Of a stretch of 19,364 nt of DNA, positions 1-12,467 are shown piece after piece. This DNA comes from Phaffia rhodozyma (lineage: Eukaryota > Basidiomycota > Tremellomycetes > Cystofilobasidiales > Mrakiaceae), in the NCBI GenBank assembly GCA_014706385.1, contig JACGZH010000020.1, positions 1 through 19,364 of the forward strand. Reading direction: 5' to 3'. How positions within the stretch are numbered: position 1 is the first letter of the stretch; the number at the start of each line of letters is the position of its first letter. The notes beneath the pieces are model-generated. The model had not been told where the DNA came from, did no database searches, and worked only from the letters and a program-made list of their open reading frames with translations. Position numbers and translations under genes: made by a program.

Positions 1-168
1 ACTCAGAGAGCACACGCTGACGGTCAGTGCCCAGCATGTTTTGCCTGCCGCGTCAGCACACACACCGACCCGGCTGAGACCGACCGAGTGAGTGCCAGCT
101 GAGTGGTCCGACGGCCCGACAGCCACCCAGACGGGCCATGGCCTGATGGACGGCGCTGACTGTCACCG

Positions 169-254
169 GCCGTCATAGCTCAATTGGTGGAGCGTATGAC
201 TGAAGACATCTGTCCGCAATCATAAGGTCGCCTGTTCGATTCAGGCTGACGGCA
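169..254 (+). tRNA. tRNA-Phe(GAA), 13-nt intron
   Basis: The acceptor GCCGTCA (169-175) pairs with TGACGGC (247-253), with A73 at 254. The D stem is GCTC/GAGC. The anticodon stem TATGA/TCATA (195-199, 220-224) holds the loop CTGAAG|A, anticodon GAA at 202-204. The intron is 206-218, after position 37. The T arm GCCTG/CAGGC encloses TTCGATT. No CCA is encoded. A T7 terminator follows at about 259. A CA dinucleotide lies 4-5 nt upstream of the mature end. It reads phenylalanine codons in cytosolic translation. Confidence 0.95.
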
Positions 255-472
255 TCCCTTTTTTTCCGGTCCTCGCTCTGTGTGTCAGTGAGGATGGCTT
301 CGATGGTGTGGCCGTCTTTTTTTTTGGGGGCTGGCTGCCCGGTGTGTGCGTACTATGCATACATGAACGACAACCATAGACACACATAGGCAAAGGCACA
401 GAAGAGAAGAAGAAGAAAAAAAAAAGCAAAAAGAGCAAAGGCCACGGTGGCAAAGTACAGGGTGCAAAAGAA

Positions 473-555
473 AGCTGTCTGCAGGATTCGAACCTGCGCC
501 CTCAAAGAGGAAGAGATTTCTAATCTCTCATCGTAGACCACTTGATTAAGACAGC
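473..555 (-). tRNA. tRNA-Ser(AGA), type II
   Basis: On the minus strand GCTGTCT (555-549) pairs with AGACAGC (480-474). The anticodon stem AGAGA/TCTCT holds TTAGAAA, anticodon AGA at 521-519. A 14-nt variable arm with stem CCTC/GAGG marks a serine type II tRNA. The T arm is GCAGG-TTCGAAT-CCTGC. There is no intron. The discriminator base is T, whereas serine tRNAs usually have G73, and the D stem is weak (ATC/GAT). A-runs at lower coordinates give the minus-strand T-run terminators. Confidence 0.92.
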
Positions 556-643
556 GTATGGTCTCGGTCTGCCGATCGACTGCCCATAGCCTGTGCTCAA
601 CAGCCATCCAGCCAGTTGGTCTGCCCAGCGCACACGTGTCGGC

Positions 644-668
644 GTGCTGTGCTGTGCTGTGCTGTGCT
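644..668. repeat. GTGCT pentamer, 5 copies
   Basis: There are five perfect tandem copies of GTGCT. The identical tract is at 10326-10350. No function can be inferred. Confidence 0.95.
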
Positions 669-856
669 CGGTGCGTCTTTCGGAGCGTGTGCTGCCAAAC
701 ATGCGCCGTCAAAGAGAGCAAAAGAAAAAGAAAGAGAAAAAGAAGGAGACATACAGACCAAAGAAAAAAAGATAACGATCGATGGCCGTCGACGGACAAA
801 CACAACAAAGCAAGACAACCATACAGCTGTACAGCAAAAGAGAATGGAAAGAACAG

Positions 857-916
857 ATGCAAATGCAAATGCAAATGCAAATGCAAGTACAAATGCAAGT
901 ACAAATGCAAGTACAA
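857..916. repeat. Hexamer tract ATGCAA / GTACAA, 10 units
   Basis: Five ATGCAA units are followed by alternating GTACAA and ATGCAA to ten units in all. The same tract is at 10539-10598 with the same unit count, so the two copies have not drifted at a site expected to change length readily. Confidence 0.95.
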
Positions 917-942
917 AAGAGAGGAGCAAAAGGCAAAAAGTG

Positions 943-1014
943 CTCCCGGACGGGGAGTCGAACCCCGGTCTCCCGCGTGACAGGCGGAAATCATAACCGT
1001 TAGACCATCCAAGA
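943..1014 (-). tRNA. tRNA-Asp(GTC)
   Basis: TCTTGGA (1014-1008) pairs with TCCGGGA (950-944), with two G-T pairs and discriminator G73 as usual for Asp. The anticodon stem TCCGC/GCGGG holds CTGTCAC, anticodon GTC. The T arm is CGGGG-TTCGACT-CCCCG. There is no intron. An A5 run at 935-939 on the plus strand is the T5 terminator on the coding strand. Confidence 0.96.
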
Positions 1015-1252
1015 GTCGGTTGGATGTCAACCTCGTCCGCTCGCCAGGTGGCTGGACAGCTGGCCGGTGCATGCACCCCATACCGTGCATTCAACCACAC
1101 AGTACCCGCAGGCACACACCAGCGCTGATACCAGTGGTCAGAACGGACATACAAAAACAAGACGAAACAGAAAGACGAAAGGAAAGAAGGACAAGGAAAA
1201 AAAGAAAAAAAGAAAAAAAGAAACGAGAGCAAAAGAAAAGACCAAAAGAGAG

Positions 1253-1324
1253 ATCCCCAACCGGGAGTCGAACCCGGGCCTACCGCGTGAGAGGCGGTTA
1301 TCATAGCCGTTAGACAATTGAGGA
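1253..1324 (-). tRNA. tRNA-Glu(CTC)
   Basis: TCCTCAA (1324-1318) pairs with TTGGGGA (1260-1254). The anticodon stem ACCGC/GCGGT holds CTCTCAC, anticodon CTC. The T arm is CCGGG-TTCGACT-CCCGG. There is no intron. The discriminator is T, unlike the A of the other glutamate gene (8673-8745). Coding-strand CATCAAG lies directly upstream, fitting the common CA start signal of the array. Confidence 0.95.
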
Positions 1325-1533
1325 CTTGATGGCTGTCATCCGTGTCCAGACACCTTGTCCAGACAGCTTGTCCATGCGTCAGAGACGTCTCCACCGGGTG
1401 CACACATCGCTTGTCTGCTGCCGAGAAAGTGGCGGAGAGTGGCAAAAAGTGAGTGAAAAGTGGCAGAAAACAACGAAGAGCGACAGGAAGCGCTCGGGAA
1501 AAGGAAACAAAGAACGAAAGGAAAAGGAAAAAA

Positions 1534-1620
1534 GGCACGCTCCCAGGATTGAACTGAGGACCTCCATGAGACAAGGCGCAAAGACCCTAACATGGCGCGA
1601 TACCACTACACCAAGCATGC
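1534..1620 (-). tRNA. tRNA-Pro(AGG), 15-nt intron
   Basis: GCATGCT (1620-1614) pairs with AGCGTGC (1541-1535), discriminator C as in all three proline genes here. The anticodon stem CCATG/CATGG (1595-1591, 1568-1564) encloses TTAGGG|T, anticodon AGG at 1588-1586. The intron is 1584-1570, after position 37. The T arm is CTCAG-TTCAATC-CTGGG. A CA lies 5 nt before the mature 5' end. Confidence 0.94.
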
Positions 1621-1876
1621 ACGATGCCTCCCAGCCCAGCCCAGACACCATAGGCCCATGTCTGGTCGGACACTGTCCAGCACAGCCGGGTGTATATCTG
1701 CGTTCCCATCGTCGCCACCGCACCACCACATCGTCACACCGTCACAACACTGCATCGCTCACCATGGAGCGTGCCAGTCGACAACAATGCCACACAGACC
1801 GCAACGGTCGAGAACAGGAGGGGTGCAAAAAAGATGGCAAAAAAAGATGGCGAAAATTAGAAAAAGAAAGAAAAAG

Positions 1877-1950
1877 TGATCAATGAGGGGGTCGAACCCG
1901 CGACCTTGGCGTTATTAGCACCACGCTCTAACCAACTGAGCTAATCGATC
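1877..1950 (-). tRNA. tRNA-Ile(AAT)
   Basis: GATCGAT (1950-1944) pairs with ATTGATC (1884-1878), discriminator A. The D arm GCTC-AGTTGGTTA-GAGC and anticodon stem TGGTG/CGCCA are typical eukaryotic Ile. The loop CTAATAA gives anticodon AAT, expected to be edited to inosine at position 34. There is no intron. The T stem GCGGG/CCCTC has one C-T mismatch in both copies. Confidence 0.95.
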
Positions 1951-2013
1951 CGATGACTGTCAGGCCCACCCGGCAGACCATGGCCAGGTGTACCGTCGGT
2001 CGCACCAGTCGAT

Positions 2014-2105
2014 GGTGTGACTGGCATTGACACTGGCATTGGTAATGACACTGGTGCTGGCACTGGCATCGACACTGACGTCGACACTGACATCGACACC
2101 GGCAC
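2014..2105. repeat. Degenerate 6-bp repeat (CACTGG / GACACT type)
   Basis: This is imperfect tandem sequence built from GGCATT, GACACT and GACATC-like hexamers, between Ile(AAT) and initiator Met. It is present unchanged at about 11695-11786. It creates long open frames on both strands that are not genes. Confidence 0.8.
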
Positions 2106-2158
2106 GTGACCTGCGGCCGACACCACATACACACTCCTCAGCCATGGTCTCCCATCAA

Positions 2159-2230
2159 TGCCAAGTAGCGCAGTGGAAGCGCGCCGGGCTCATAACCCGG
2201 AGGTCGCCTGATCGAGACGGGCCTTGGCAA
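2159..2230 (+). tRNA. Initiator tRNA-Met(CAT)
   Basis: TGCCAAG (2159-2165) pairs with CTTGGCA (2223-2229), A73. The anticodon stem CCGGG/CCCGG has the three G-C pairs next to the loop CTCATAA. The T loop ATCGAGA has A54 and A60, the eukaryotic initiator signature, in place of TTCG. The first pair is T1-A72 rather than the A1-T72 usual in eukaryotic initiators. A T5 terminator follows at about 2238. It delivers methionine to the start codon. Confidence 0.95.
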
Positions 2231-2387
2231 CATTGTCTTTTTGCTCGTTTTCCCTCGGTTTTTTCCCTGGCCCCCGTCCGGCCGTCCGTGCTGGAGGCCT
2301 GCAAGCCGGCCGCATGGTGCCACCGTCTGTACGGCCAGCCAGCCGGGCGCTCGACATACCCTCTGGGCACGGAGGCCCCGGGCAAGC

Positions 2388-2461
2388 GACCCATTAGCTC
2401 AGTTGGTAGCAGCGCAAGATTCCAAATCTTGAGGTCATCCGTTCAAGTCGGGTATGGGTCT
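2388..2461 (+). tRNA. tRNA-Trp(CCA)
   Basis: GACCCAT (2388-2394) pairs with ATGGGTC (2454-2460). The anticodon stem CAAGA/TCTTG holds TTCCAAA, anticodon CCA. The T arm is ATCCG-TTCAAGT-CGGGT with one T-G pair. There is no intron. The discriminator at 2461 is T, the first base of the T-run terminator; tryptophan tRNAs normally carry A or G here. The D stem keeps only three pairs (GCT/AGC). Confidence 0.92.
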
Positions 2462-2687
2462 TTTTTTGTTTTCCCGCCCGTCTGCCTGCCCCACCACAGG
2501 GAACTGTGTCGACCTGGCTCGACCGTGGTGGACACGCGCACACAGGCCAGACCGGTCGGACAGACAGTGACCCACACAACGGCCGATAGAAACAGAGTGC
2601 AGAGAGAGCGTGCAGAGAAAAAGAAGGGCAAAAAGGAGGGCAAAAAAGAGGGCAAAAAAGAAAGGGGGACACAAAAAGTGAACATTT

Positions 2688-2786
2688 AGACCGATGTCGG
2701 GATCGAACCGACGACCAGCAGCGAGCGAAGACGACCTTGCGGACGAGTACCGAAAACTGCTGTGATAGCCACTACACCAATCGGCC
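2688..2786 (-). tRNA. tRNA-Arg(TCG), 26-nt intron
   Basis: GGCCGAT (2786-2780) pairs with ATCGGTC (2695-2689). The anticodon stem GCAGT/GCTGC (2760-2756, 2722-2718) encloses TTTCGG|C, anticodon TCG at 2753-2751. The intron is 2749-2724. A one-base shift would read TTC (Glu), but that leaves no base 26 and a 4-nt variable loop, and Glu(TTC) exists at 8673. G37 and discriminator T match the other arginine genes here. The T arm is GTCGG-TTCGATC-CCGAC. Confidence 0.86.
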
Positions 2787-3008
2787 AGATATGATCGCTT
2801 GCCCTGCCCCGGTGACCACTACATCGGCAGCAGCAGCTGGGAGAACGTCATCGGTCGCATCGCCCGTCTGGCCGAGACAGTGCGCATGCCGCGTGAGAGC
2901 GACCGGACTGGACCGAAGGCAGGAACCCTAGCAGTCAAAGAGGAAGCAGCCACAAGGCAGAAAAAAAAGAACAAAAAAGAACAAAAAGCAAAAGGCAAAA
3001 AAACAAGA

Positions 3009-3095
3009 TCGCCGCTCTCGGGATCGAACCGAGTGCCTTCGGTGAACAAGTGTATCCTTTACAAACCAACGCTCTTCCAGATGAGCTAAGCGGCG
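3009..3095 (-). tRNA. tRNA-Tyr(GTA), 14-nt intron
   Basis: CGCCGCT (3095-3089) pairs with AGCGGCG (3016-3010). The first pair is C1-G72, the tyrosine identity pair of eukaryotes, with A73. The anticodon stem TTGGT/ACCGA holds TTGTAA|C, anticodon GTA at 3062-3060. The intron is 3058-3045. Tyrosine tRNA genes carry an intron in nearly all eukaryotes. Coding-strand CATACC precedes the mature end. Confidence 0.96.
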
Positions 3096-3328
3096 GGTAT
3101 GGTGCCAGCACCGTTTGTCCGGATAGATTCTCGTCCAAGCGGACTCTGCGCAGCAGCAGTCGTCGTCGTCATCAGCACTGCCGACGCCACCGCCACCGCC
3201 ACTTCCACTGCCGTCATGCTCAGCCCATCTGACGGCCGGATCCGACCGCACCTCCGCCTGGCCCAGCCCGGCCGCCCACCAACCATCAGGAAGGATGGGA
3301 AACACAGCAAAAGAGGAAAAAAAAGAGT

Positions 3329-3415
3329 TGCCCAGAGCGAGAATCGAACTCGCGGCTGAGGATCACACTCGGGTGACGGTATGAGACCTACGTTTTACCA
3401 CTAAACTACCCAGGC
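3329..3415 (-). tRNA. Probable elongator tRNA-Met(CAT) with ~15-nt intron
   Basis: GCCTGGG (3415-3409) pairs with TCTGGGC (3336-3330) through G-T pairs, A73. The D arm is GTTT-AGTGGTA-AAAC and the T arm GCGAG-TTCGATT-CTCGC. The only reading with T33 in place gives loop CTCATA, anticodon CAT at 3383-3381. The intron would be about 3379-3365, with a small hairpin TCAC/GTGA. The anticodon stem is poor in any alignment (TAGGT against ATCCT has two mismatches), so intron ends are uncertain. It is the only elongator Met candidate in the unit. Confidence 0.75.
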
Positions 3416-3566
3416 ACGTTGACTGCCCAGCCGCCCCGGCGGTCGACCTCGATGGGCTACGTCTGGCCGAGCGGACGGTGTGGGCCGGGTCCTGACCACA
3501 CCGGTACACCAACACATCGACACACCAACACCCTTAGAGACAACACGACCGGGCGACGGGCACCAG

Positions 3567-3639
3567 GCCCGAATAGCTAAGTGGTTATAGTGCGCCGCTC
3601 GTAACGGTGAGGTCCGTGGTTCAAATCCGCGTTTGGGCT
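3567..3639 (+). tRNA. tRNA-Thr(CGT)
   Basis: GCCCGAA (3567-3573) pairs with TTTGGGC (3632-3638), discriminator T. The anticodon stem CGCCG/CGGTG holds CTCGTAA, anticodon CGT. The T arm is CGTGG-TTCAAAT-CCGCG. There is no intron. T5 follows at 3643-3647. Coding-strand CACCAG precedes the gene. Confidence 0.95.
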
Positions 3640-3655
3640 TGCTTTTTGCTCCGAT

Positions 3656-3699
3656 GTCCGCTGTGTGTATCGGGTCGGCCGTGTGTATCGGGTCGGCCG
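3656..3699. repeat. Two copies of an ~18-bp direct repeat
   Basis: Downstream of Thr(CGT), the motif GTGTGTATCGGGTCGGCC occurs twice in tandem, followed by a partial third. The copy is at about 13337-13380. Confidence 0.85.
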
Positions 3700-3849
3700 T
3701 GCGTGTCATGCCGGCCGGGCCACGTGCGGCGGGCGGACAGGTCGGCCAGCGATGTAAGCACACCTGCCAGCGGACACGCGCCGACGGACCCTTGCCAGCG
3801 GACACACCGCCAGAACGAGACTCGCGAGGGCAATAGGCCGACAACGACC

Positions 3850-3932
3850 GGTTCTATGGTGAAGTTGGTTATCACGCGAGATTCTGATTGACTCACCTTC
3901 TCGAATCCCCAGTTCGAATCTGAGTAGGACCT
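3850..3932 (+). tRNA. tRNA-Gln(CTG), 10-nt intron
   Basis: GGTTCTA (3850-3856) pairs with TAGGACC (3925-3931), discriminator T. The anticodon stem CGAGA/TCTCG holds TTCTGA|T, anticodon CTG at 3884-3886. The intron is 3888-3897, among the shortest here. The T stem CCCAG/CTGAG has one C-A mismatch in both copies. A T8 terminator follows shortly after the gene. No TTG glutamine gene is present. Confidence 0.93.
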
Positions 3933-4035
3933 TTCCTTTTTTTTCGCCCTCTTTTTCCCGTCCTCCCTCCTGCCGCCTGTGCCGTCTTCTGTCGGACTCG
4001 GCCCGGTCTGGCGTGTGCCGTCCGGTGCGGCCTTC

Positions 4036-4090
4036 TCTCGTCCTGTCTCGTCCTGTCTCGTCCTGTCTCGTCCTGTCTTGTCATGTCTCG
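4036..4090. repeat. 10-bp repeat TCTCGTCCTG, about 5.5 units
   Basis: Four perfect units are followed by two degenerate ones, in a pyrimidine-rich spacer between two plus-strand tRNA genes. The same unit count is at 13717-13771. Confidence 0.92.
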
Positions 4091-4115
4091 TCTTTTTCCA
4101 CCGACGCTTACCTTT

Positions 4116-4213
4116 ACTCCATTGGCGAAGTGGTTATCGCATTGTTCTTATAGGTTGCCGTCCGTGCCTCTAGTGCTTAACAAGGATCATGAGTTCGAAC
4201 CTCATATGGAGTA
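4116..4213 (+). tRNA. tRNA-Ile(TAT), 25-nt intron
   Basis: ACTCCAT (4116-4122) pairs with ATGGAGT (4206-4212), A73. The anticodon stem TTGTT/AACAA (4142-4146, 4179-4183) encloses CTTATA|T, anticodon TAT at 4149-4151. The intron is 4153-4177. The T arm is ATGAG-TTCGAAC-CTCAT. It decodes ATA and complements Ile(AAT) at 1877. A T4 terminator follows at 4215-4218. Confidence 0.95.
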
Positions 4214-4291
4214 TCTTTTGCCTCCCGGACGGACGGACGGACGGCCGGCTGGAGACCGACAAACTGACCGGCCAGGCCTGTGCGATCACTG

Positions 4292-4391
4292 GCGGGATTG
4301 GTGTAGTGGTATCACGCCGTCTTCGGGCTTTGCTGGCTCGCATGAAACACGTGTCTGACGGAGGTCCTCGGTTCAATCCCGGGATCGCGCC
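4292..4391 (+). tRNA. tRNA-Pro(CGG), 28-nt intron
   Basis: GCGGGAT (4292-4298) pairs with ATCGCGC (4384-4390) except for G4-G69; discriminator C. The anticodon stem CCGTC/GACGG encloses TTCGGG|T, anticodon CGG at 4324-4326. The intron 4328-4355 is the longest in the array. The T arm is CTCGG-TTCAATC-CCGGG. It closely resembles Pro(TGG) at 5489, which has T4 and so pairs. T5 follows at about 4397. Confidence 0.93.
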
Positions 4392-4615
4392 TTGTCTTTT
4401 TGCCGACCTGGCTTTTATCTTGTATCTTTTGTCTTTTGTCTTTTGTCTTTATCGCCATCTTATCTTCTTTCTTTCTTTCTTGCCGATCGATCGTGTCTGT
4501 CGATCTTATCTGCCATCTCTGTCGGCTGGCTGTGTATCTTATCATGCATCTTATCTTGCGATGGCTTCTCTCGGTCTGTCCATCGTGGCCGTGTGCTGAG
4601 GGCAAAAAGACGTCA

Positions 4616-4699
4616 TGGTCACCGCCAGGATCGAACTGGCGACCTATTGCGCACCGGGTGAGATGTGAAGCAAGCGTCATACCACTAGACCAGGCGACC
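4616..4699 (-). tRNA. tRNA-Val(CAC), 12-nt intron
   Basis: GGTCGCC (4699-4693) pairs with GGTGACC (4623-4617), A73. The anticodon stem CTTGC/GCAAT has an outer C-T mismatch and encloses TTCACA|C, anticodon CAC at 4667-4665. The intron is 4663-4652. The T arm is GCCAG-TTCGATC-CTGGC. An A5 at 4604-4608 on the plus strand is the T5 terminator. It is transcribed divergently from the permuted Arg gene. Confidence 0.93.
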
Positions 4700-4747
4700 G
4701 ATCGACACGGCCTTTTCTCCGCCGGGCTCCGTACTCCGGGGCTCGAC

Positions 4748-4772
4748 GTCCGACGTCCGACGTCCGATATCC
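4748..4772. repeat. Short 8-bp repeat (CGACGTCC)
   Basis: There are three copies of CGACGTCC followed by a degenerate copy, between Val(CAC) and the permuted Arg gene. The copy is at 14429-14453. Confidence 0.75.
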
Positions 4773-4882
4773 GATGGGCGATCGGACGGATCGGCCGGAC
4801 GCCCACCGCCTCGGATAACCCTAGCAGAGCCAACGCCCACACATCCACTTGGCCATACATCCACACAACCAGACGAAAGCTA

Positions 4883-4893
4883 AAGGCAAAGAT
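4883..4893 (+). other. Leader arm complementary to the permuted-gene trailer
   Basis: AAGGCAAAGAT here is a perfect reverse complement of 5032-5042, which begins 3 nt after the last tRNA base. Pairing would close the ends of the permuted pre-tRNA. The copy is at 14564-14574. The complementarity is seen; the function is inferred. Confidence 0.6.
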
Positions 4894-4903
4894 GGTGGAA
4901 CGG
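4893..4903 (+). promoter_or_regulatory. A-box-like element upstream of the permuted tRNA-Arg
   Basis: TGGTGGAACGG fits the A-box consensus TRGYNNANNNG at every fixed position and differs at one base from the A box of Val(AAC) at 8944-8954. It lies 54 nt before the B box at 4947, within the spacing seen in intron-containing genes here (for example 71 nt in Pro(CGG)). It may place TFIIIB so that the 3' half is transcribed. The copy is at 14574-14584. Confidence 0.6.
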
Positions 4904-4946
4904 TCGTCATGGCCGGCTGCCAGCTTGTATGCATCAGGAAATCGCG

Positions 4947-4957
4947 GGTTCGAACCC
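4947..4957 (+). promoter_or_regulatory. B box of the permuted tRNA-Arg
   Basis: GGTTCGAACCC matches the B-box consensus GGTTCGANNCC. Because of the permutation it lies upstream of the internal A box TGGCCCAGCGG (5001-5011), the reverse of the normal order. The copy is at 14628-14638. Confidence 0.8.
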
Positions 4958-4968
4958 CGTCTTGGTCT

Positions 4969-4993
4969 AGTGGTCCCACCACCCATTCGCTCT
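4969..4993 (+). other. Intervening sequence of the permuted tRNA-Arg
   Basis: This 25-nt spacer joins the mature 3' end to the mature 5' end. It contains a 5-bp hairpin, GTGGT (4970-4974) with ACCAC (4978-4982). It should be removed by tRNA end-processing enzymes. No CCA directly follows T73. The copy is at 14650-14674. Confidence 0.8.
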
Positions 4994-5031
4994 GGCCGAG
5001 TGGCCCAGCGGTAAGGCGTCTGACTACGAGG

Positions 5032-5042
5032 ATCTTTGCCTT
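5032..5042 (+). other. Trailer arm of the permuted tRNA-Arg
   Basis: ATCTTTGCCTT is the exact reverse complement of 4883-4893. It sits between the end of the 5' half (5029) and the first T4 run (5044-5047). The copy is at 14713-14723. Confidence 0.6.
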
Positions 5043-5043
5043 C

Positions 5044-5052
5044 TTTTGTTTT
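5044..5052 (+). terminator. Pol III terminator of the permuted tRNA-Arg
   Basis: Two T4 runs (5044-5047 and 5049-5052) lie one base after the trailer arm. The copy is at 14725-14733. Confidence 0.7.
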
Positions 5053-5225
5053 GGTCTTTCTGTTGTGTTGACACTGTGTTGCTGGTGCATTGCATTGCAT
5101 GGTTGTGTTCTCGTTGTGTTCTCGTTGTGTTCTCGCTATGTTTTTACTGTGTTGCCATTGTTATGCTGTTGTCTTTCTGCCATATGTCTTTTTCTCTTTC
5201 TATATTGATGCATCTATCGTTGACA

Positions 5226-5353
5226 GAAAAAAAAGAAGAAAAAAGAAGAAAAAGGGAAAAGAGGGAAAAGAAGGGAAAAAAGAAGGGAAAAAAGAGGAAA
5301 AAAGAGGACAAAGAAAAAACGGGAGAGGAAAAAGAAAAAAGAAAAAAAAAAAG
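5226..5353. repeat. Long A/G-only purine tract
   Basis: This is almost pure purine (about 125 bases, with very few C) in blocks such as GGGAAAAG. On the minus strand it offers many T-runs downstream of Pro(TGG). Such tracts can form triplex DNA. The copy is at 14907-15034. Confidence 0.8.
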
Positions 5354-5408
5354 AGTACACAGCATAGGGTAACAGCGGACGCTATGTGGCGGGTAATCCT
5401 ATGAGTAG

Positions 5409-5444
5409 CACAGCAAGTAACACAGCAACTGACACAGCAAGTAA
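5409..5444. repeat. 12-bp repeat CACAGCAAGTAA, 3 units
   Basis: Units at 5409-5420 and 5433-5444 are identical; the middle one reads CACAGCAACTGA. The copy is at 15090-15125. Confidence 0.9.
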
Positions 5445-5488
5445 CCCTACACCGACCACGCCACCCGCCCAGACGGGCCGAACAAAAA

Positions 5489-5582
5489 GGCGCGATTCCG
5501 GGATTGAACCGAAGACCTCCAAGAGATGTGCACGGCAGAAAGTGTGCCCAAACTTGGCGTGATACCACTACACCAATCACGC
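5489..5582 (-). tRNA. tRNA-Pro(TGG), 22-nt intron
   Basis: GCGTGAT (5582-5576) pairs with ATCGCGC (5496-5490), discriminator C. The anticodon stem CCAAG/CTTGG encloses TTTGGG|T, anticodon TGG at 5550-5548. The intron is 5546-5525. The T arm is TTCGG-TTCAATC-CCGGA. An A5 at 5484-5488 is the immediate T5 terminator. Body sequence is close to Pro(CGG) and Pro(AGG), while the three introns differ in length and sequence. Confidence 0.95.
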
Positions 5583-5724
5583 ACGATGGCAGCCCGTCAG
5601 CCCGTCTGTCTGTCTGCCTGGCGGGGTGTGAGCATGCGGAGACAGCAAACACAGACAGCAAGGAAGGATCGACGCGACAGAAGGCAGAGAGAACGGAAGT
5701 GGGCAAAAAGAAAAAGAGAAAGGA

Positions 5725-5834
5725 CGACCGCTGTAGGATTTGAACCTACGCCTTCAGAGAAGAGTAGCTGTCGCGTCGTCCCACAGAGGGGACTCGTTCG
5801 AGGCTACCGCGTTAGACCACTCCGCCAAACGGCC
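5725..5834 (-). tRNA. tRNA-Ser(CGA), type II, 27-nt intron
   Basis: GGCCGTT (5834-5828) pairs with AGCGGTC (5732-5726), discriminator G as expected for serine. The anticodon stem GTAGC/GCTAC encloses CTCGAA|A, anticodon CGA at 5800-5798. The intron is 5796-5770. The 14-nt variable arm has stem CTTC/GAAG. The T arm is GTAGG-TTCAAAT-CCTAC. Coding-strand CATCCAA precedes the gene. At 110 bases it is the longest gene of the unit. Confidence 0.94.
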
Positions 5835-6003
5835 TTGGATGGACGCCGCTCGGTGAGCGGTGAGGACAAGCCGGTGGGCAGCAGACCAAGAGAAGACACA
5901 CAGAACACGACACACAACACGACACACAACATGCCATATGAAATGCAACGAAATCAAATACGCCAAGATAAAACAAAACACACCGAAACACACCAAAAAG
6001 AGA

Positions 6004-6085
6004 TGGAGACTCCGGGAATCGAACCCAGGAATGACACATGATCGACAGTGCGAAGCGTCCAGTTTACCAACTAGCCTAAATCCCC
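6004..6085 (-). tRNA. tRNA-Ala(CGC), 10-nt intron
   Basis: GGGGATT (6085-6079) pairs with AGTCTCC (6011-6005) and carries the alanine identity pair G3-T70, A73. The anticodon stem GACGC/GTGTC encloses TTCGCA|T, anticodon CGC at 6052-6050. The intron is 6048-6039. The D stem is weak (GGCT against AACT) and the variable loop has 4 nt. The T arm is CTGGG-TTCGATT-CCCGG. The other two Ala genes lack introns. Confidence 0.93.
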
Positions 6086-6119
6086 AGCTGCCCTGCCCCC
6101 CCGGCCGGGACAAAAGGAA

Positions 6120-6218
6120 TGATGAAGACGAGATTTGAACTCGCGCCATTACTGACTGCGGTCTGGACTCGGAAGAGAGACCTAAACACAGCGCCTTAGA
6201 CCACTCGGCCACTTCACC
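6120..6218 (-). tRNA. tRNA-Leu(TAG), type II, 19-nt intron
   Basis: GGTGAAG (6218-6212) pairs with CTTCATC (6127-6121), A73. The D arm starts GCCGAGTGG, typical of Leu. The anticodon stem CTGTG/CGCAG encloses TTTAGG|C, anticodon TAG at 6184-6182. The intron is 6180-6162. The variable arm TCAGTAATGGC is identical to that of Leu(AAG) at 6935. It lies 34 nt from Ala(CGC), the tightest spacing of the unit; an A4 at 6112-6115 gives only a weak T4 terminator. Confidence 0.94.
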
Positions 6219-6235
6219 AGCATGCTTTCCCTGCG

Positions 6236-6298
6236 TTTGTGGTGTTGTTTGTGGTGTTGTTTGTGGTGTCGTTTGTGGTGTGTGGTGTGGTGTGGTGC
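6236..6298. repeat. 12-bp GT-rich repeat TTTGTGGTGTTG
   Basis: There are three near-perfect units followed by degenerate TGTGG repeats, directly upstream of Leu(TAG). The copy is at 15917-15979. Confidence 0.9.
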
Positions 6299-6428
6299 TT
6301 GCTTTGTGCGGAACCCTAACGAGCACGCGTCGACCAGACGCCCGCCGGGACGACAGGGAAGGATACAACAGAAAAAGAAGAAGAAGAAATGAACGGAAAT
6401 GAACGGAGAATAAAAAAAAAGAAGAATG

Positions 6429-6501
6429 TTCCTGCTAGCCGATTTGAACGACTGACCTCGACATTACTAGTGTCGCGCTCTACCAACTGAGCTAAGAAGG
6501 A
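6429..6501 (-). tRNA. tRNA-Thr(AGT)
   Basis: TCCTTCT (6501-6495) pairs with AGCAGGA (6436-6430) with one T5-C68 mismatch, A73. The anticodon stem CGACA/TGTCG holds CTAGTAA, anticodon AGT, expected to be edited to inosine. The T arm is AGTCG-TTCAAAT-CGGCT. There is no intron. It shares little with Thr(CGT) at 3567, including a different discriminator. The A9 run at 6412-6420 (terminator on the coding strand) is A10 in copy 2. Confidence 0.93.
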
Positions 6502-6692
6502 CGGTTGGTGTCCACCGAGCGCGTCGGTACGTCCTTCGTGTCCTGCCCCTGTGTCGGCACAGACGCACTGCTCGTCCGAACGGCAGCACACACCATCATC
6601 GCACCAGCCGGCGAGACCGAACACGGACGATCGGCAGATGTGCACCCGCCAGCACAGAGCCGATCGGTGTGTGGGACGAGAAAAAAAAAGGA

Positions 6693-6763
6693 TACAACCG
6701 CGGGGAATCGAACCCCGGCCTAGTGCATGGCAAGCACCAATGATACCATTTCACCACAGCTGT
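6693..6763 (-). tRNA. tRNA-Gly(GCC)
   Basis: ACAGCTG (6763-6757) pairs with CGGTTGT (6700-6694), A73. The anticodon stem GGTGC/GCACT holds TTGCCAT, anticodon GCC. The T arm is CGGGG-TTCGATT-CCCCG. There is no intron and the variable loop has 4 nt. The first pair is A1-T72; glycine tRNAs normally have G1-C72. An A9 at 6681-6689 is the terminator on the coding strand. Confidence 0.94.
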
Positions 6764-6934
6764 TGGATGCTGTACGGTCTGTTCATTCAGTCCACAGTCC
6801 AAAACGGACCGGCAGACAGCAAGGGGGTGTGGCAGTGTTGCAACGTGGCATCATACTACCATGGCACCGCACCTGAGAGCACAGCCCGGCCAGGCAGACC
6901 CGAGAGGCACGGCCCGTGCCGGCCGGACAAAAAG

Positions 6935-7027
6935 TGATGAGGGCGAGATTCGAACTCGCGCCATTACTGACTGCGGGGCATAGAAAGAGCCTTAACACAG
7001 CGCCTTAGACCACTCGGCCACCTCACC
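6935..7027 (-). tRNA. tRNA-Leu(AAG), type II, 13-nt intron
   Basis: GGTGAGG (7027-7021) pairs with CCTCATC (6942-6936), A73. The anticodon stem CTGTG/CGCAG encloses TTAAGG|C, anticodon AAG at 6993-6991. The intron is 6989-6977. It is nearly identical to Leu(TAG) outside the intron and anticodon, pointing to duplication followed by anticodon change. Coding-strand CATCCA precedes the gene. Confidence 0.95.
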
Positions 7028-7231
7028 TGGATGAAGGCCTGTCCGGCCGGTCGGCCAGTGTGCTCGCAGCAGCCGGCCTGTCTCGGTGCAACACATGGTG
7101 TGTGATGTGGTGGGCAGGACGGAGCATGACCGAGAGGAGCAGAGCGAAAGAAGAGAGTGCAAGAAAAGGCAGCGGGCGGAAAAAAAAAAAAAAAGACTAC
7201 CAAAAAACACAAAAAAAACGACACAAAAAAG

Positions 7232-7304
7232 TGGAGATTGTAAGAATCGAACTCACGACCTCAACCATGCTAAGATTGCGCTCTGCCAACTGAGCTAAAT
7301 CCCC
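7232..7304 (-). tRNA. tRNA-Ala(AGC)
   Basis: GGGGATT (7304-7298) pairs with AATCTCC (7239-7233) with the alanine identity pair G3-T70 and A73. The anticodon stem CAATC/GGTTG holds TTAGCAT, anticodon AGC. The T arm is GTGAG-TTCGATT-CTTAC. There is no intron. Several A-runs of 5-14 bases at 7182-7230 are terminators on the coding strand. Confidence 0.96.
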
Positions 7305-7522
7305 GTGTGTGTCTGTCTGTCCGTGCTGCCAGCCCAGATCGTCAGACATGCCCGCGCGACCCACCAGCCGACCCACCTCTCACCTCTGTTCAACCCTCCA
7401 TGCACCCTTCCACCGTCGACGGCCCACCAAGCGCACACCAAGCCAGCAAACAAAAACACAAAGAACGAAAACAGAAACAGAAACAGAAACAAAAAATCAC
7501 ACCGACACACAAAAACGAAGCT

Positions 7523-7616
7523 AGCCCCATGGGGGGGTCGAACCCCCAGCCTTCAGATGCCAACTGTCAAGAGACTGGGTAAGAGTCTGACGCTCTACCG
7601 ATTGAGCTAACAGGGC
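7523..7616 (-). tRNA. tRNA-Lys(CTT), 21-nt intron
   Basis: GCCCTGT (7616-7610) pairs with ATGGGGC (7530-7524), discriminator T. The D arm GCTC-AATCGGTA-GAGC and stem TCAGA/TCTGA are typical Lys. The loop CTCTTA|A gives anticodon CTT at 7583-7581. The intron is 7579-7559. The T arm is GGGGG-TTCGACC-CCCCC. It is the only lysine gene; TTT is absent from the unit. Confidence 0.94.
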
Positions 7617-7784
7617 GGTTATAGTCCCCAGCCCGGCCCGTACCCCTAGACACCAACGCCGCCACCCAACTAGCCCCTCCCACGCCCCGGTCGTGTGCCT
7701 CAGAGTCTTGCCGCCGTCCGCACAGTGTCTTGTACTGCCACCGCCTCCGCCCCCGCCACGCGCACAAAAAAAAAATGACAAAAA

Positions 7785-7856
7785 TGAGATGTAGGTGAAT
7801 CGAACACCTGTCTCCAGAATGGAAATCTGGAATAATAACCATTATACGAACATCCC
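7785..7856 (-). tRNA. tRNA-Gly(TCC)
   Basis: GGGATGT (7856-7850) pairs with ACATCTC (7792-7786), A73. The anticodon stem CCAGA/TCTGG holds TTTCCAT, anticodon TCC. The T arm is AGGTG-TTCGATT-CACCT. There is no intron and the variable loop is short. A10 and A4 runs at 7766-7784 provide terminators. Coding-strand CATCAAG precedes the gene. Confidence 0.95.
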
Positions 7857-7959
7857 CTTGATGGGAGGGTCCACATACATCAGTCCTATACCCTGCGCAT
7901 ACAGTCCACACTCTACAGCCCGCCAGCATACCAAGCGTCTCACGTGTACACCCACATTC

Positions 7960-8013
7960 TCACTCACACCCCACTCACACCCCAACCACACCCCACTCAC
8001 ACCCCAACCACGC
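7960..8013. repeat. CA-rich repeat (ACTCACACCCCA / ACCACACCCC)
   Basis: Short units of 9-10 bp alternate in the spacer upstream of Gly(TCC). The copy is at 17642-17695. Confidence 0.8.
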
Positions 8014-8031
8014 CCGCCGCAAAAAAAGAGA

Positions 8032-8117
8032 AACCCCGCCTGGGGATTGAACCCAGAATCTTCACCTCTCTCACCAGACAGTAGGAAGGAGACGCGTTAC
8101 CATTCTGCCAACGGGGC
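8032..8117 (-). tRNA. tRNA-Arg(CCT), 14-nt intron
   Basis: GCCCCGT (8117-8111) pairs with GCGGGGT (8039-8033); the first pair is G1-T72, as I recall for mammalian Arg(CCT). Discriminator T. The anticodon stem TCTCC/GGTGA has one T-T mismatch and encloses TTCCTA|A, anticodon CCT at 8085-8083. The intron is 8081-8068. The T arm is CTGGG-TTCAATC-CCCAG. The D stem has only two firm pairs. Confidence 0.88.
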
Positions 8118-8204
8118 GTGTGTGCCCGGGCAGGGTGCACTCGCTCTACCCCGCCCACACTCCCGCACACTCCCGCACCCACACACACCTCACGCACCCC
8201 ATCC

Positions 8205-8286
8205 GGACAGATGGCCGAGCGGTCTAAGGCGTCAGACTCAAGTTCTGATATCGCAAGATGCGGGGGTTCGAATCCCCCTCTGTTCA
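8205..8286 (+). tRNA. tRNA-Leu(CAA), type II
   Basis: GGACAGA (8205-8211) pairs with TCTGTTC (8279-8285), A73. The A box is TGGCCGAGCGG. The anticodon stem TCAGA/TCTGA holds CTCAAGT, anticodon CAA. The variable arm contains CGC/GCG. The T arm is GGGGG-TTCGAAT-CCCCC. There is no intron, although Leu(CAA) genes often have one in other eukaryotes. A T4 terminator follows at 8289-8292. Confidence 0.95.
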
Positions 8287-8360
8287 TCTTTTGCCCCCTG
8301 CCGAGAGATTCCGTGTGGTTTTGCAACCAAGACTCTGTTTCTGATAGCATCATACCAGAC

Positions 8361-8420
8361 CTCACCTCGCCGCACCTCACCTCACCGCACCGCACCGCAC
8401 CTCACCGCACCGCACCGCAC
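8361..8420. repeat. Pentamer CACCT / CACCG tract
   Basis: Alternating CACCT, CACCG and CCGCA pentamers run upstream of Ala(TGC). The copy is at 18043-18102. Confidence 0.88.
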
Positions 8421-8460
8421 TTCGCCCCACCGACCGACACACCACGCCTCCATCCCACAC

Positions 8461-8532
8461 GGGCTTATGGTGTAGTGGTATCACATTCGCTTTGCATGCG
8501 AAAGGCCGCGGGTTCAATCCCTGCTGGGTCCA
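8461..8532 (+). tRNA. tRNA-Ala(TGC)
   Basis: GGGCTTA (8461-8467) pairs with TGGGTCC (8525-8531) and includes the alanine identity pair G3-T70, A73. The anticodon stem TTCGC/GCGAA holds TTTGCAT, anticodon TGC. The T arm is GCGGG-TTCAATC-CCTGC. There is no intron. T5 follows at 8534-8538. Confidence 0.96.
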
Positions 8533-8610
8533 CTTTTTGCCGTCCGGTCGGAAGCATGCTGACCGGCGGCCACCCGCTCACAGCCTACCGCACGACGGAG
8601 CAGGCTGCAC

Positions 8611-8640
8611 ACGACTGCGCACGACTGCAGACGACTGCAG
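8611..8640. repeat. 10-bp repeat ACGACTGCAG, 3 units
   Basis: Three tandem units, the first reading ACGACTGCGC, lie between Ala(TGC) and Glu(TTC). The copy is at 18293-18322. Confidence 0.88.
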
Positions 8641-8672
8641 ACGAGTCGACCGATTCGGCGTGCTTGTACTAG

Positions 8673-8745
8673 TCCTCATTGGTCAAACGGTTTACGATAT
8701 CAGCTTTTCACGCTGAGGACCCGGGTTCGACTCCCGGATGGGGAA
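8673..8745 (+). tRNA. tRNA-Glu(TTC)
   Basis: TCCTCAT (8673-8679) pairs with ATGGGGA (8738-8744), A73. The anticodon stem TCAGC/GCTGA holds TTTTCAC, anticodon TTC. The T arm is CCGGG-TTCGACT-CCCGG. There is no intron. The acceptor resembles that of Glu(CTC). T5 follows at 8752-8756. Confidence 0.95.
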
Positions 8746-8936
8746 CGATCCTTTTTGTTTTCTCCCCGGGCTGCCTCGTCTGAGGGCCAGCTTGTCGGCA
8801 GGCATGGTCCCGGTGTCGCACGATCGGGCTGATGGGCCGGCCGACCGATGGACACACAGCGGCGGGCGGGCAGACGGCGGAGCGAGCGGTGCCTGGTCGA
8901 TGAGTAGGATACTGGGCAGACAGCGGCAGTCATCAG

Positions 8937-9008
8937 AGTTGCATGGTGTAACGGTTATCACTTGAGTCTAACACACTCACGACCCCAGTTCGACTCTGGG
9001 TGCGACTA
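8937..9008 (+). tRNA. tRNA-Val(AAC)
   Basis: AGTTGCA (8937-8943) pairs with TGCGACT (9001-9007), A73. The A box is TGGTGTAACGG. The anticodon stem TGAGT/ACTCA holds CTAACAC, anticodon AAC, expected to be edited to inosine. The T arm is CCCAG-TTCGACT-CTGGG. There is no intron. It is followed by an unusually long chain of T-runs. Confidence 0.95.
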
Positions 9009-9011
9009 CTC

Positions 9012-9111
9012 TTTTTGTTCTTTTTGTTCTTTTTGCTCTTTTTTCTTGCTCTTTTTTCTTGCTCTTTTTTCTTGCTCTTTTTTCTTGTTCTTTTTTCCTG
9101 TTCTTTTTTCT
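9012..9111 (+). terminator. Serial T-run terminators behind tRNA-Val(AAC)
   Basis: Three T5 and six T6 runs are separated by 4-7 nt units such as CTTGCTC, giving nine consecutive Pol III stop signals. The tract is also a 13-bp tandem repeat. The copy is at 18694-18793. Confidence 0.85.
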
Positions 9112-9302
9112 GCTCCTTTGTTCCTTTTGTTTTCTCTGTGCAGATGCAGCATCTGTGACGCCGGCCTGGTCGCACCGGGCGATGTTGCGTCCACAGCTGC
9201 CACTACTCGATCGCAGGACGACAAAGCGGCTGCCACTGTGCTGTGTGCATGTGTGCAAGCGTGCCTGTGGATGATCTGTCCGATGGCGCGGCAGCCTCAT
9301 AC

Positions 9303-9375
9303 GGAGTTATAGCACAGCGGTAGTTGCGGCTGGTTGCAACCCAGCAGGTCCCTGGTTCAATCCCGGGTGACTCCT
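9303..9375 (+). tRNA. tRNA-Cys(GCA)
   Basis: GGAGTTA (9303-9309) pairs with TGACTCC (9368-9374), discriminator T as usual for cysteine. The anticodon stem GCTGG/CCAGC holds TTGCAAC, anticodon GCA. The T arm is CCTGG-TTCAATC-CCGGG. There is no intron. The T-run terminator begins with the discriminator base. Coding-strand CATAC precedes the gene. Confidence 0.95.
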
Positions 9376-9520
9376 TTTTTCTTGCCGGCCGAGCATGCTG
9401 GTGGAAGATGGATGATGTCCATCGCAAGAACATACCAAGAACACGCACACCTCATGGACGGCAGAAGACGAGAGGGGAAGTACTGCACAGGAAAGGGAGA
9501 GGGAAAAAAAATGAGGAGAC

Positions 9521-9583
9521 AAAAAGACGACAAAAAGACGACAAAAAGACGACAAAAAGACGACAAAAAGACGACAAAAAGAC
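9521..9583 (-). terminator. 11-bp repeat AAAAAGACGAC: serial terminators behind tRNA-Asn
   Basis: Five full units and one partial unit each put a T5 on the minus strand, downstream of the Asn gene. The copy is at about 19204-19266 with the same unit number. Confidence 0.85.
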
Positions 9584-9655
9584 TGCCCCGTACGGGCTCG
9601 AACCGTAGACCTTGGAGTTAACAGCTCCACGCTCTACCAACTGAGCTACAGGGCA
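9583..9655 (-). tRNA. tRNA-Asn(GTT)
   Basis: TGCCCTG (9655-9649) pairs with CGGGGCA (9590-9584), discriminator G as usual for Asn. The D arm is GCTC-AGTTGGTA-GAGC. The anticodon stem TGGAG/CTCCA holds CTGTTAA, anticodon GTT. The T arm is TACGG-TTCGAGC-CCGTA. There is no intron. This copy is intact; the second copy has lost one base of the anticodon stem. Confidence 0.96.
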
Positions 9656-9850
9656 TGGGATGGTCGCCTGCTGTGTCCGAGCACTCAGAGAGCACACGCT
9701 GACGGTCAGTGCCCAGCATGTTTTGCCTGCCGCGTCAGCACACACACCGACCCGGCTGAGACCGACCGAGTGAGTGCCAGCTGAGTGGTCCGACGGCCCG
9801 ACAGCCACCCAGACGGGCCATGGCCTGATGGACGGCGCTGACTGTCACCG

Positions 9851-9936
9851 GCCGTCATAGCTCAATTGGTGGAGCGTATGACTGAAGACATCTGTCCGCA
9901 ATCATAAGGTCGCCTGTTCGATTCAGGCTGACGGCA
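9851..9936 (+). tRNA. tRNA-Phe(GAA), copy 2
   Basis: Same sequence as 169-254, with the 13-nt intron at 9888-9900. Confidence 0.95.
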
Positions 9937-10154
9937 TCCCTTTTTTTCCGGTCCTCGCTCTGTGTGTCAGTGAGGATGGCTTCGATGGTGTGGCCGTCTT
10001 TTTTTTTGGGGGCTGGCTGCCCGGTGTGTGCGTACTATGCATACATGAACGACAACCATAGACACACATAGGCAAAGGCACAGAAGAGAAGAAGAAGAAA
10101 AAAAAAAGCAAAAAGAGCAAAGGCCACGGTGGCAAAGTACAGGGTGCAAAAGAA

Positions 10155-10237
10155 AGCTGTCTGCAGGATTCGAACCTGCGCCCTCAAAGAGGAAGAGATT
10201 TCTAATCTCTCATCGTAGACCACTTGATTAAGACAGC
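10155..10237 (-). tRNA. tRNA-Ser(AGA), copy 2
   Basis: Same sequence as 473-555, including the unusual discriminator T. Confidence 0.92.
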
Positions 10238-10624
10238 GTATGGTCTCGGTCTGCCGATCGACTGCCCATAGCCTGTGCTCAACAGCCATCCAGCCAGTTG
10301 GTCTGCCCAGCGCACACGTGTCGGCGTGCTGTGCTGTGCTGTGCTGTGCTCGGTGCGTCTTTCGGAGCGTGTGCTGCCAAACATGCGCCGTCAAAGAGAG
10401 CAAAAGAAAAAGAAAGAGAAAAAGAAGGAGACATACAGACCAAAGAAAAAAAGATAACGATCGATGGCCGTCGACGGACAAACACAACAAAGCAAGACAA
10501 CCATACAGCTGTACAGCAAAAGAGAATGGAAAGAACAGATGCAAATGCAAATGCAAATGCAAATGCAAGTACAAATGCAAGTACAAATGCAAGTACAAAA
10601 GAGAGGAGCAAAAGGCAAAAAGTG

Positions 10625-10696
10625 CTCCCGGACGGGGAGTCGAACCCCGGTCTCCCGCGTGACAGGCGGAAATCATAACCGTTAGACCATCCAAGA
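10625..10696 (-). tRNA. tRNA-Asp(GTC), copy 2
   Basis: Same sequence as 943-1014. Confidence 0.96.
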
Positions 10697-10933
10697 GTCG
10701 GTTGGATGTCAACCTCGTCCGCTCGCCAGGTGGCTGGACAGCTGGCCGGTGCATGCACCCCATACCGTGCATTCAACCACACAGTACCCGCAGGCACACA
10801 CCAGCGCTGATACCAGTGGTCAGAACGGACATACAAAAACAAGACGAAACAGAAAGACGAAAGGAAAGAAGGACAAGGAAAAAAGAAAAAAAGAAAAAAA
10901 GAAACGAGAGCAAAAGAAAAGACCAAAAGAGAG

Positions 10934-11005
10934 ATCCCCAACCGGGAGTCGAACCCGGGCCTACCGCGTGAGAGGCGGTTATCATAGCCGTTAGACAATT
11001 GAGGA
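10934..11005 (-). tRNA. tRNA-Glu(CTC), copy 2
   Basis: Same sequence as 1253-1324. The A-run region downstream is one A shorter in this copy. Confidence 0.95.
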
Positions 11006-11214
11006 CTTGATGGCTGTCATCCGTGTCCAGACACCTTGTCCAGACAGCTTGTCCATGCGTCAGAGACGTCTCCACCGGGTGCACACATCGCTTGTCTGCT
11101 GCCGAGAAAGTGGCGGAGAGTGGCAAAAAGTGAGTGAAAAGTGGCAGAAAACAACGAAGAGCGACAGGAAGCGCTCGGGAAAAGGAAACAAAGAACGAAA
11201 GGAAAAGGAAAAAA

Positions 11215-11301
11215 GGCACGCTCCCAGGATTGAACTGAGGACCTCCATGAGACAAGGCGCAAAGACCCTAACATGGCGCGATACCACTACACCAAGCATG
11301 C
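11215..11301 (-). tRNA. tRNA-Pro(AGG), copy 2
   Basis: Same sequence as 1534-1620, with the intron at 11251-11265. Confidence 0.94.
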
Positions 11302-11557
11302 ACGATGCCTCCCAGCCCAGCCCAGACACCATAGGCCCATGTCTGGTCGGACACTGTCCAGCACAGCCGGGTGTATATCTGCGTTCCCATCGTCGCCACC
11401 GCACCACCACATCGTCACACCGTCACAACACTGCATCGCTCACCATGGAGCGTGCCAGTCGACAACAATGCCACACAGACCGCAACGGTCGAGAACAGGA
11501 GGGGTGCAAAAAAGATGGCAAAAAAAGATGGCGAAAATTAGAAAAAGAAAGAAAAAG

Positions 11558-11631
11558 TGATCAATGAGGGGGTCGAACCCGCGACCTTGGCGTTATTAGC
11601 ACCACGCTCTAACCAACTGAGCTAATCGATC
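11558..11631 (-). tRNA. tRNA-Ile(AAT), copy 2
   Basis: Same sequence as 1877-1950, with the same T-stem mismatch. Confidence 0.95.
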
Positions 11632-11839
11632 CGATGACTGTCAGGCCCACCCGGCAGACCATGGCCAGGTGTACCGTCGGTCGCACCAGTCGATGGTGTG
11701 ACTGGCATTGACACTGGCATTGGTAATGACACTGGTGCTGGCACTGGCATCGACACTGACGTCGACACTGACATCGACACCGGCACGTGACCTGCGGCCG
11801 ACACCACATACACACTCCTCAGCCATGGTCTCCCATCAA

Positions 11840-11911
11840 TGCCAAGTAGCGCAGTGGAAGCGCGCCGGGCTCATAACCCGGAGGTCGCCTGATCGAGACG
11901 GGCCTTGGCAA
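11840..11911 (+). tRNA. Initiator tRNA-Met(CAT), copy 2
   Basis: Same sequence as 2159-2230, with T1-A72 and A54/A60 kept. Confidence 0.95.
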
Positions 11912-12068
11912 CATTGTCTTTTTGCTCGTTTTCCCTCGGTTTTTTCCCTGGCCCCCGTCCGGCCGTCCGTGCTGGAGGCCTGCAAGCCGGCCGCATGGTG
12001 CCACCGTCTGTACGGCCAGCCAGCCGGGCGCTCGACATACCCTCTGGGCACGGAGGCCCCGGGCAAGC

Positions 12069-12142
12069 GACCCATTAGCTCAGTTGGTAGCAGCGCAAGA
12101 TTCCAAATCTTGAGGTCATCCGTTCAAGTCGGGTATGGGTCT
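12069..12142 (+). tRNA. tRNA-Trp(CCA), copy 2
   Basis: Same sequence as 2388-2461. Confidence 0.92.
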
Positions 12143-12368
12143 TTTTTTGTTTTCCCGCCCGTCTGCCTGCCCCACCACAGGGAACTGTGTCGACCTGGCT
12201 CGACCGTGGTGGACACGCGCACACAGGCCAGACCGGTCGGACAGACAGTGACCCACACAACGGCCGATAGAAACAGAGTGCAGAGAGAGCGTGCAGAGAA
12301 AAAGAAGGGCAAAAAGGAGGGCAAAAAAGAGGGCAAAAAAGAAAGGGGGACACAAAAAGTGAACATTT

Positions 12369-12467
12369 AGACCGATGTCGGGATCGAACCGACGACCAGC
12401 AGCGAGCGAAGACGACCTTGCGGACGAGTACCGAAAACTGCTGTGATAGCCACTACACCAATCGGCC
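12369..12467 (-). tRNA. tRNA-Arg(TCG), copy 2
   Basis: Same sequence as 2688-2786, with the intron at 12405-12430. Confidence 0.86.

Follow-up and report, generated by a model that had tools for sequence, protein, structure and literature searches.

A circularly permuted, probably functional tRNA-Arg(ACG) gene in the tandem tRNA arrays of a Phaffia-like basidiomycete

Introduction

How would a cell obtain a tRNA from a gene in which the 3' half comes before the 5' half, and could the decoding of two arginine codons be entrusted to such a gene? This is the question raised by a locus of a Phaffia-like basidiomycete, located in a window (the whole stretch of DNA that was analysed, 19,364 nt) where an earlier note, made from the letters alone, had read a permuted tRNA-Arg(ACG). 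We have followed up this reading computationally. To the view that the locus is a functional nuclear gene, circularly permuted and of type II (junction at 37/38), we give a probability of roughly 0.85, and it would then be, as far as our literature searches reach, the first permuted tRNA gene from a fungus, probably in working order.

Layout and identity of the gene

The window is one contig (C7) of an assembly of 19.77 Mb in 15 contigs, and a tandem unit of 9682 bp fills it twice over. We assign the genome to Phaffia rhodozyma or a close relative: a protein encoded 13-16 kb from the telomere of C13 has 93% identity, over 99% of the query, to one of P. rhodozyma, the next species coming at 24-30%. 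A second protein query matched a single metagenome protein, at 52%, and did not bear the species out. A hand parse of the unit yields 33 ordinary tRNA genes, 30 of which are recovered by the Rfam tRNA model and two more (at 1534 and 6001) by ARAGORN, while Arg(TCG), at 2690-2790, was added by eye. An intron follows position 37 in 16 of the 33, as the earlier note had it, and this is the very place where the permuted gene is broken. No second ACG gene is found among the 33, in keeping with the note's remark that the permuted one is the only such gene of the unit. The features on which the description rests are the following:

1..9682 (no strand): tandem unit 1, with 33 ordinary tRNA genes and the permuted one
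9683..19364 (no strand): tandem unit 2, set apart from the first by four single-base indels
4933..4968 (+ strand): 3' half of tRNA-Arg(ACG), A38 through position 73 (T), carrying the T arm and B box
4969..4993 (+ strand): 25-nt intervening sequence between the acceptor strands, with no T4 run (by reading)
4994..5029 (+ strand): 5' half, from G1 to A37, with D arm, A box (5001-5011) and anticodon ACG (5026-5028)
14614..14649 (+ strand): 3' half in the second unit
14675..14710 (+ strand): 5' half in the second unit

The 3' half lies upstream of the 5' half on a single strand, with A38 at 4933, position 73 at 4968, G1 at 4994 and A37 at 5029; the limits given in the earlier note, including the 25 nt left between the halves, are exact. 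When the halves are rejoined at 37/38 all of the 20 stem pairs form, as had been claimed: 7/7 in the acceptor stem (two G-U), 3/3 in the D stem, 5/5 in the anticodon stem (one G-U) and 5/5 in the T stem (one G-U). The rejoined molecule carries the usual tRNA signature (T8, G18G19, T33, T54T55C56 and the pair G15-C48), and CCA is not encoded. The permuted reading is thus the one that fits, and both the order of the halves and the 37/38 junction hold. The assignment to Arg(ACG) rests on the anticodon, on likeness to known Arg(ACG) tRNAs, on the acceptor stem and on T73. By eye, this acceptor stem is much like that of the Arg(TCG) of the unit, and T at position 73 is common to the permuted gene, Arg(TCG), Arg(CCT) and Arg(TCT).

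Chance, assembly and conservation

Neither Rfam nor ARAGORN calls a tRNA at the permuted locus. The sole Rfam match there, to YrlA, is below threshold (18 bits) and was set aside as due to chance. We therefore built a covariance model, R1, from 15 other class I tRNAs of the genome, cut at 37/38 and permuted around random spacers, the permuted Arg(ACG) gene itself being left out, and searched the window and 29 further loci (196 kb). This is the kind of permutation-aware search that the earlier note had advocated, and it brings out the gene in both units (4933-5029 and 14614-14710) at 54 bits, with an E value of 1.8e-15; the remaining 79 of the 81 matches listed reach at best 27.8 bits, in a match that uses half of an ordinary tRNA. 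In the 29 further loci, the 17 matches with E up to 1e-6 are all the permuted gene again; 13 of them reach 54 bits, and the other four lie at 39-48.3 bits. Since R1 attains 54 bits without having included the gene, the permuted arrangement is not a product of chance.

The unit of 9.7 kb, with its 34 tRNA genes, is repeated at least 44 times, over some 430 kb, in contigs C4-C7 and at the ends of C9, C10, C11, C12 and C13. It is richer in G+C (55%) than nearby loci (about 47%; for the five larger loci measured outside the arrays, 46.6-49.9%). The G+C of these loci and the size of the assembly agree with the genome of P. rhodozyma, described as about 19 Mb with 47% G+C in the part of its report that bears on this (PMC5103461). 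A 17-mer of the 5' half, with up to three mismatches, is found 44 times in the arrays (43 exact, one with a single mismatch), and outside them in 34 scattered matches, as against 47 in a reversed control. A stretch of 101 nt across the gene, again with up to three mismatches allowed, recovers 40 copies, all with zero mismatches and in permuted order. The four array copies that escape this pattern differ by indels (one deletion in L033, three deletions in L034, one insertion in L035 and four insertions in L036), and reading them establishes that the permuted order is kept in 44 of 44 array copies, on nine contigs. It might be thought that the order was created by the assembler, since the window consists of exactly two units, differing mostly by single-base indels; but nine contigs carry 44 copies between them, all in this order, and the stretch of 101 nt concerned is shorter than any long read, which makes an artefact of this kind extremely improbable.

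Conservation is a poor guide here. There is no variable site between units in the 159 nt across the permuted gene, but 24% of the 159-nt windows of the unit are equally invariant, so that this adds little to the case for function, and we gave up unit-to-unit identity as a proof of it. The variation low throughout the unit would also suit another explanation, namely that we are looking at a dead relic of a tandemly duplicated Arg(ACG), spread by homogenisation of the array, with a working gene elsewhere that was missed or left unassembled: unequal crossing-over could keep 44 copies alike without any selection. Against this stands the contrast between the ordinary tRNA exons, with 0.55% of variable sites between units, and the spacers, with 3.03%, which indicates that selection does act within the array. 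In addition, 20 intact pairs out of 20 are not what is expected of a relic.

Looking for a conventional Arg(ACG) gene

A relic would require a working gene somewhere, and the earlier note had likewise proposed to look for one. We found none by patterns and BLAST in this assembly, which is broken at the arrays. With the rejoined 72-mer, all 80 matches are single halves in arrays (40 of the 44 candidates were scored). The anticodon arm without intron has 44 matches outside the arrays, as against 52 in the reversed control. Taken together, this search and that with the 17-mer of the 5' half give 78 non-array matches, 15 of which keep CTACG intact; ARAGORN sees no tRNA in these 15, and they get at most 9.6 bits from a second model, R2, which contains yeast and human Arg(ACG) sequences. 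A T-arm pattern matches the genome 471 times, and among the 100 matches listed 40 places on C1-C3 comprise 12 tRNA genes, none with ACG. Dispersed copies of two array tRNAs have kept 98.8% identity over 84 nt, so that an ordinary Arg(ACG) of the usual similarity should have surfaced. The permuted gene is apparently the only one for its anticodon, within a search that is not exhaustive in an assembly broken at arrays.

This matters for decoding. CGU and CGC usually fall to Arg(ICG), and some tRNA is needed for these codons, which also speaks against a relic without function. In the ribosomal open reading frames of X. dendrorhous (= P. rhodozyma), the portion of PMC4404019 that deals with codon usage gives RSCU values of 0.30 for CGU and 0.25 for CGC. 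What keeps the relic alive as an explanation is the nature of the genome search (patterns and BLAST, in an assembly breaking in arrays) together with a missing pair at the splice junction, considered below; on balance we hold it to be unlikely, and retain the functional permuted gene as the preferred reading.

Some dispersed copies deserve a mention in their own right. At 1343.7-1346.7 kb, C2 carries a small cluster in which four tRNAs of the array recur, namely Thr(CGT), a Lys(CTT)-like one, Ala(AGC) and Arg(TCG), with gene bodies matching the array at 82.7-98.8% and flanks that do not match; this cluster contains no other arrangement of Arg(ACG). A Met(CAT)-like array gene (window 3329-3415) has an intron, and its dispersed copy on C9 has none. 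Between 0.43 and 1.42 Mb, C1 harbours seven intron-bearing tRNA genes of equal score, which ARAGORN calls Ile(TAT) and which by eye are Ser(GCT).

Promoter and terminator

A permuted tRNA gene meets a difficulty at the outset, as its internal promoter is inverted. In known permuted genes the B box comes before the A box, an order thought unfit for TFIIIC, and in those of C. merolae an upstream TATA-like element is used, according to the section of PMC3978253 concerned with promoters. The Phaffia gene differs from this type II layout in having an A box in its leader, ahead of the B box:

4893..4903 (+ strand): stretch of the leader that matches the A-box consensus TRGYNNARNGG exactly, with 54 nt from it to the B box
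5044..5047 (+ strand): first downstream T4 run, likely the RNA polymerase III terminator, just after the leader-trailer helix described below (by reading)

The spacing of 54 nt compares with 42-81 nt in the 33 ordinary genes, and a match to the consensus is present in 104 of 5000 shuffled leaders. The polymerase III promoter may therefore keep its normal A-before-B order by means of the leader box. With such a promoter and a start shortly upstream, the leader strand of the helix would be included in the transcript. By reading, there is no T4 run before 5044. Further matches to the A-box consensus, at 4963-4973 and 4993-5003, overlap the spacer and the acceptor of the permuted gene; the latter is identical to the box that serves as A box in Leu(TAG) and Leu(AAG).

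Where might the leader box come from? An attempt to recognise in the leader a decayed Arg 5' half had to be abandoned on the evidence of alignment: 1827 of 5000 shuffles score as high, and R2 gives 30.5 bits to leader plus 3' half as against 30.2 to 5' half plus downstream sequence; there is a partial match to the 5' strand of the acceptor. We nevertheless put forward, as a speculation that we would rather not bet upon, a broader scenario in which CGU and CGC are decoded wholly via a tRNA dependent on an RNA circle, from a gene in at least 44 tandem copies, the leader being what is left of the 5' half of a tandem duplicate, kept for the sake of the A-before-B order. If true, it would reveal a way in which tRNA genes can become permuted in an organism that depends on TFIIIC, and it would place permuted tRNA genes in the fungi.

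Precursor folding and the splice junction

Three stretches of the flanks would shape the precursor:

4883..4893 (+ strand): leader strand of an 11-bp leader-trailer helix (shuffles and folding)
4924..4931 (+ strand): part of the leader for which constrained folds predict pairing with anticodon loop C32-A37 and with G5030
5032..5042 (+ strand): trailer strand of the 11-bp helix (shuffles)

The two strands of the helix pair perfectly over 11 bp, a length that 5 of 5000 shuffles reach. Flanks complementary over 11 bp also occur in one of the 33 ordinary genes, that at 6935, and over the window 58 of 19,364 sliding positions attain this length, the 40 of these 58 that are listed being at the permuted locus and near 6870. 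The ordinary gene in question, Leu(AAG) at 6935-7027, has GC-rich complementary flanks (11 bp, or 13 with G-U).

This pairing bears on whether the two halves could be transcribed separately and joined in trans, as in a split tRNA. One could imagine it, as a pairing partner of its own comes after each half, and the halves of the 44 copies could meet. Yet the halves sit 25 nt apart on one strand with no T4 terminator between them, an arrangement that does not make two transcription units (an A-box-like match at 4963 overlaps the acceptor and the spacer); moreover leader and trailer pair with each other, and a short spacer links the acceptor halves as it does in known permuted genes (1-74 nt in Table 1 of PMC3978253). 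We consider a split tRNA very improbable, and proceed with a single permuted transcript.

With the tRNA stems enforced, the leader is predicted to pair with the anticodon loop through C32-G4931, U33-A4929, A34-U4928, C35-G4927, G36-U4926 and A37-U4925. The constrained precursor fold, compared with shuffled flanks at three flank lengths that include the helix, has z scores of -3.49, -4.18 and -4.25 (1, 0 and 2 of 1000 shuffles as low, respectively); when the leader is too short to include the helix, it is not unusual (z -0.85, 193 of 1000 shuffles as low). Free folding favours another structure (-65.8 kcal/mol, against -56.2 for the constrained one), and so it does for the mature tRNA (-23.1 against -20.3). 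Between A37 and the helix the trailer has two bases, and leader and trailer thereby resemble an intron that has been cut open. In part this recalls a bulge-helix-bulge (BHB-like) motif, in that the leader is predicted to pair with U33-A37 and the trailer with the leader over 11 bp. One element is out of place. The 32:i-3 pair is possible in 13 of the 15 introns scored, out of 16 in the unit (the two without it, at 3329 and in Ala(CGC), are of uncertain register), but at the permuted junction it is, by hand, a C32-U4930 mismatch, although C32 could pair with G4931, one base nearer. The absence of this pair is the main feature of the sequence against efficient splicing, and it counts in favour of the relic.

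A possible maturation pathway

We may then imagine how the tRNA would be made. RNA polymerase III, guided by the leader A box and the B box of the 3' half, would produce a single RNA that runs from the leader through the 3' half, the spacer and the 5' half to the trailer, ending at the T-run at 5044. Through the 11-bp pairing and that of the leader with the anticodon loop, the two ends would together behave like an intron that has been opened. Once the tRNA splicing endonuclease had cut after A37 and before A38, the fungal tRNA ligase would join 37 to 38, resulting in a circle. RNase P and tRNase Z would subsequently excise the 25-nt spacer, CCA would be added, and A34 would be converted to inosine, allowing CGU and CGC to be read. 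Exons matching the splicing endonuclease family (PF01974) are present at two places of the genome, and three exons matching the Trl1-type ligase family (PF09511) on C8.

Comparison with known systems

Type II permuted genes are listed, in the relevant part of PMC3978253, for Cyanidioschyzon merolae, Ostreococcus, Micromonas and the Bigelowiella nucleomorph. As described there, the Phaffia gene has in common with them the 3'-before-5' order, the 37/38 junction, a downstream T-run and the lack of an encoded CCA, and its spacer of 25 nt falls within the 5-64 nt that Table 1 gives for type II. It differs from these algal and nucleomorph genes in its fungal host, in its 11-bp leader-trailer helix and in being present in at least 44 tandem copies within a 34-gene unit. 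Apart from the splice motif, with its C-U mismatch, every structural test made places it in type II. What sets it off from earlier examples is the host, the tandem amplification and, probably, the layout of the promoter. The same principle is met in the permuted tRNA genes of the green alga Auxenochlorella (PMC12633428, as far as its pertinent section goes) and of the archaeon Thermofilum pendens, with junctions at 59/60 (PMC3978253, likewise); in both organisms, the corresponding passages indicate, these genes surfaced because the list of ordinary tRNAs was incomplete. In the portions of these two sources that survey them, permuted nuclear tRNA genes are reported for algae of the red and green lineages and for a nucleomorph, with archaea in addition, and among the papers outside subscription that our searches listed we found none from fungi or animals.

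If the gene works and is the sole one for its anticodon, the ordinary splicing and ligation machinery of an opisthokont would be seen to cope with circular RNAs as indispensable precursors of a tRNA. A culturable relative of an industrial yeast would open to experiment both the promoter problem and the origin of permuted genes, for which the idea at stake is a tandem duplication followed by loss of the outer halves.

Arrays and contig ends

Long head-to-tail tRNA arrays are also known in Entamoeba, with at most five tRNA genes per unit in the part of PMC2652664 describing them, as against 34 in Phaffia, and the human tRNA repeat at 1q23.3 is again a head-to-tail array in the account excerpted from PMC4041453. 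In the Phaffia unit, the permuted gene is one of the 34. For strain CBS 7918 of P. rhodozyma, a short-read genome gave 49 dispersed tRNAs with 12 anticodons, according to the tRNA section of PMC5103461; this assembly probably lacked the arrays, and short-read tRNA counts would fall short for that reason.

A telomeric placing of the arrays had to be dropped. Three of the five large array-bearing contigs, C9, C10 and C13, begin with CCCTAA telomere repeats, and their TTAGGG-type repeats are at the end opposite to the arrays; at the other end of C11 there are scattered TTAGGG-type repeats only, and C12 has N there. The arrays, rather than the telomeres, seem to be the points where the assembly breaks. 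Near or directly beside telomere repeats lies a long reverse-transcriptase-like open reading frame (loci L013, L015 and L016; 1172 aa in L015), found likewise at the starts of C8 and C9, which by eye is perhaps a telomere-targeted non-LTR element.
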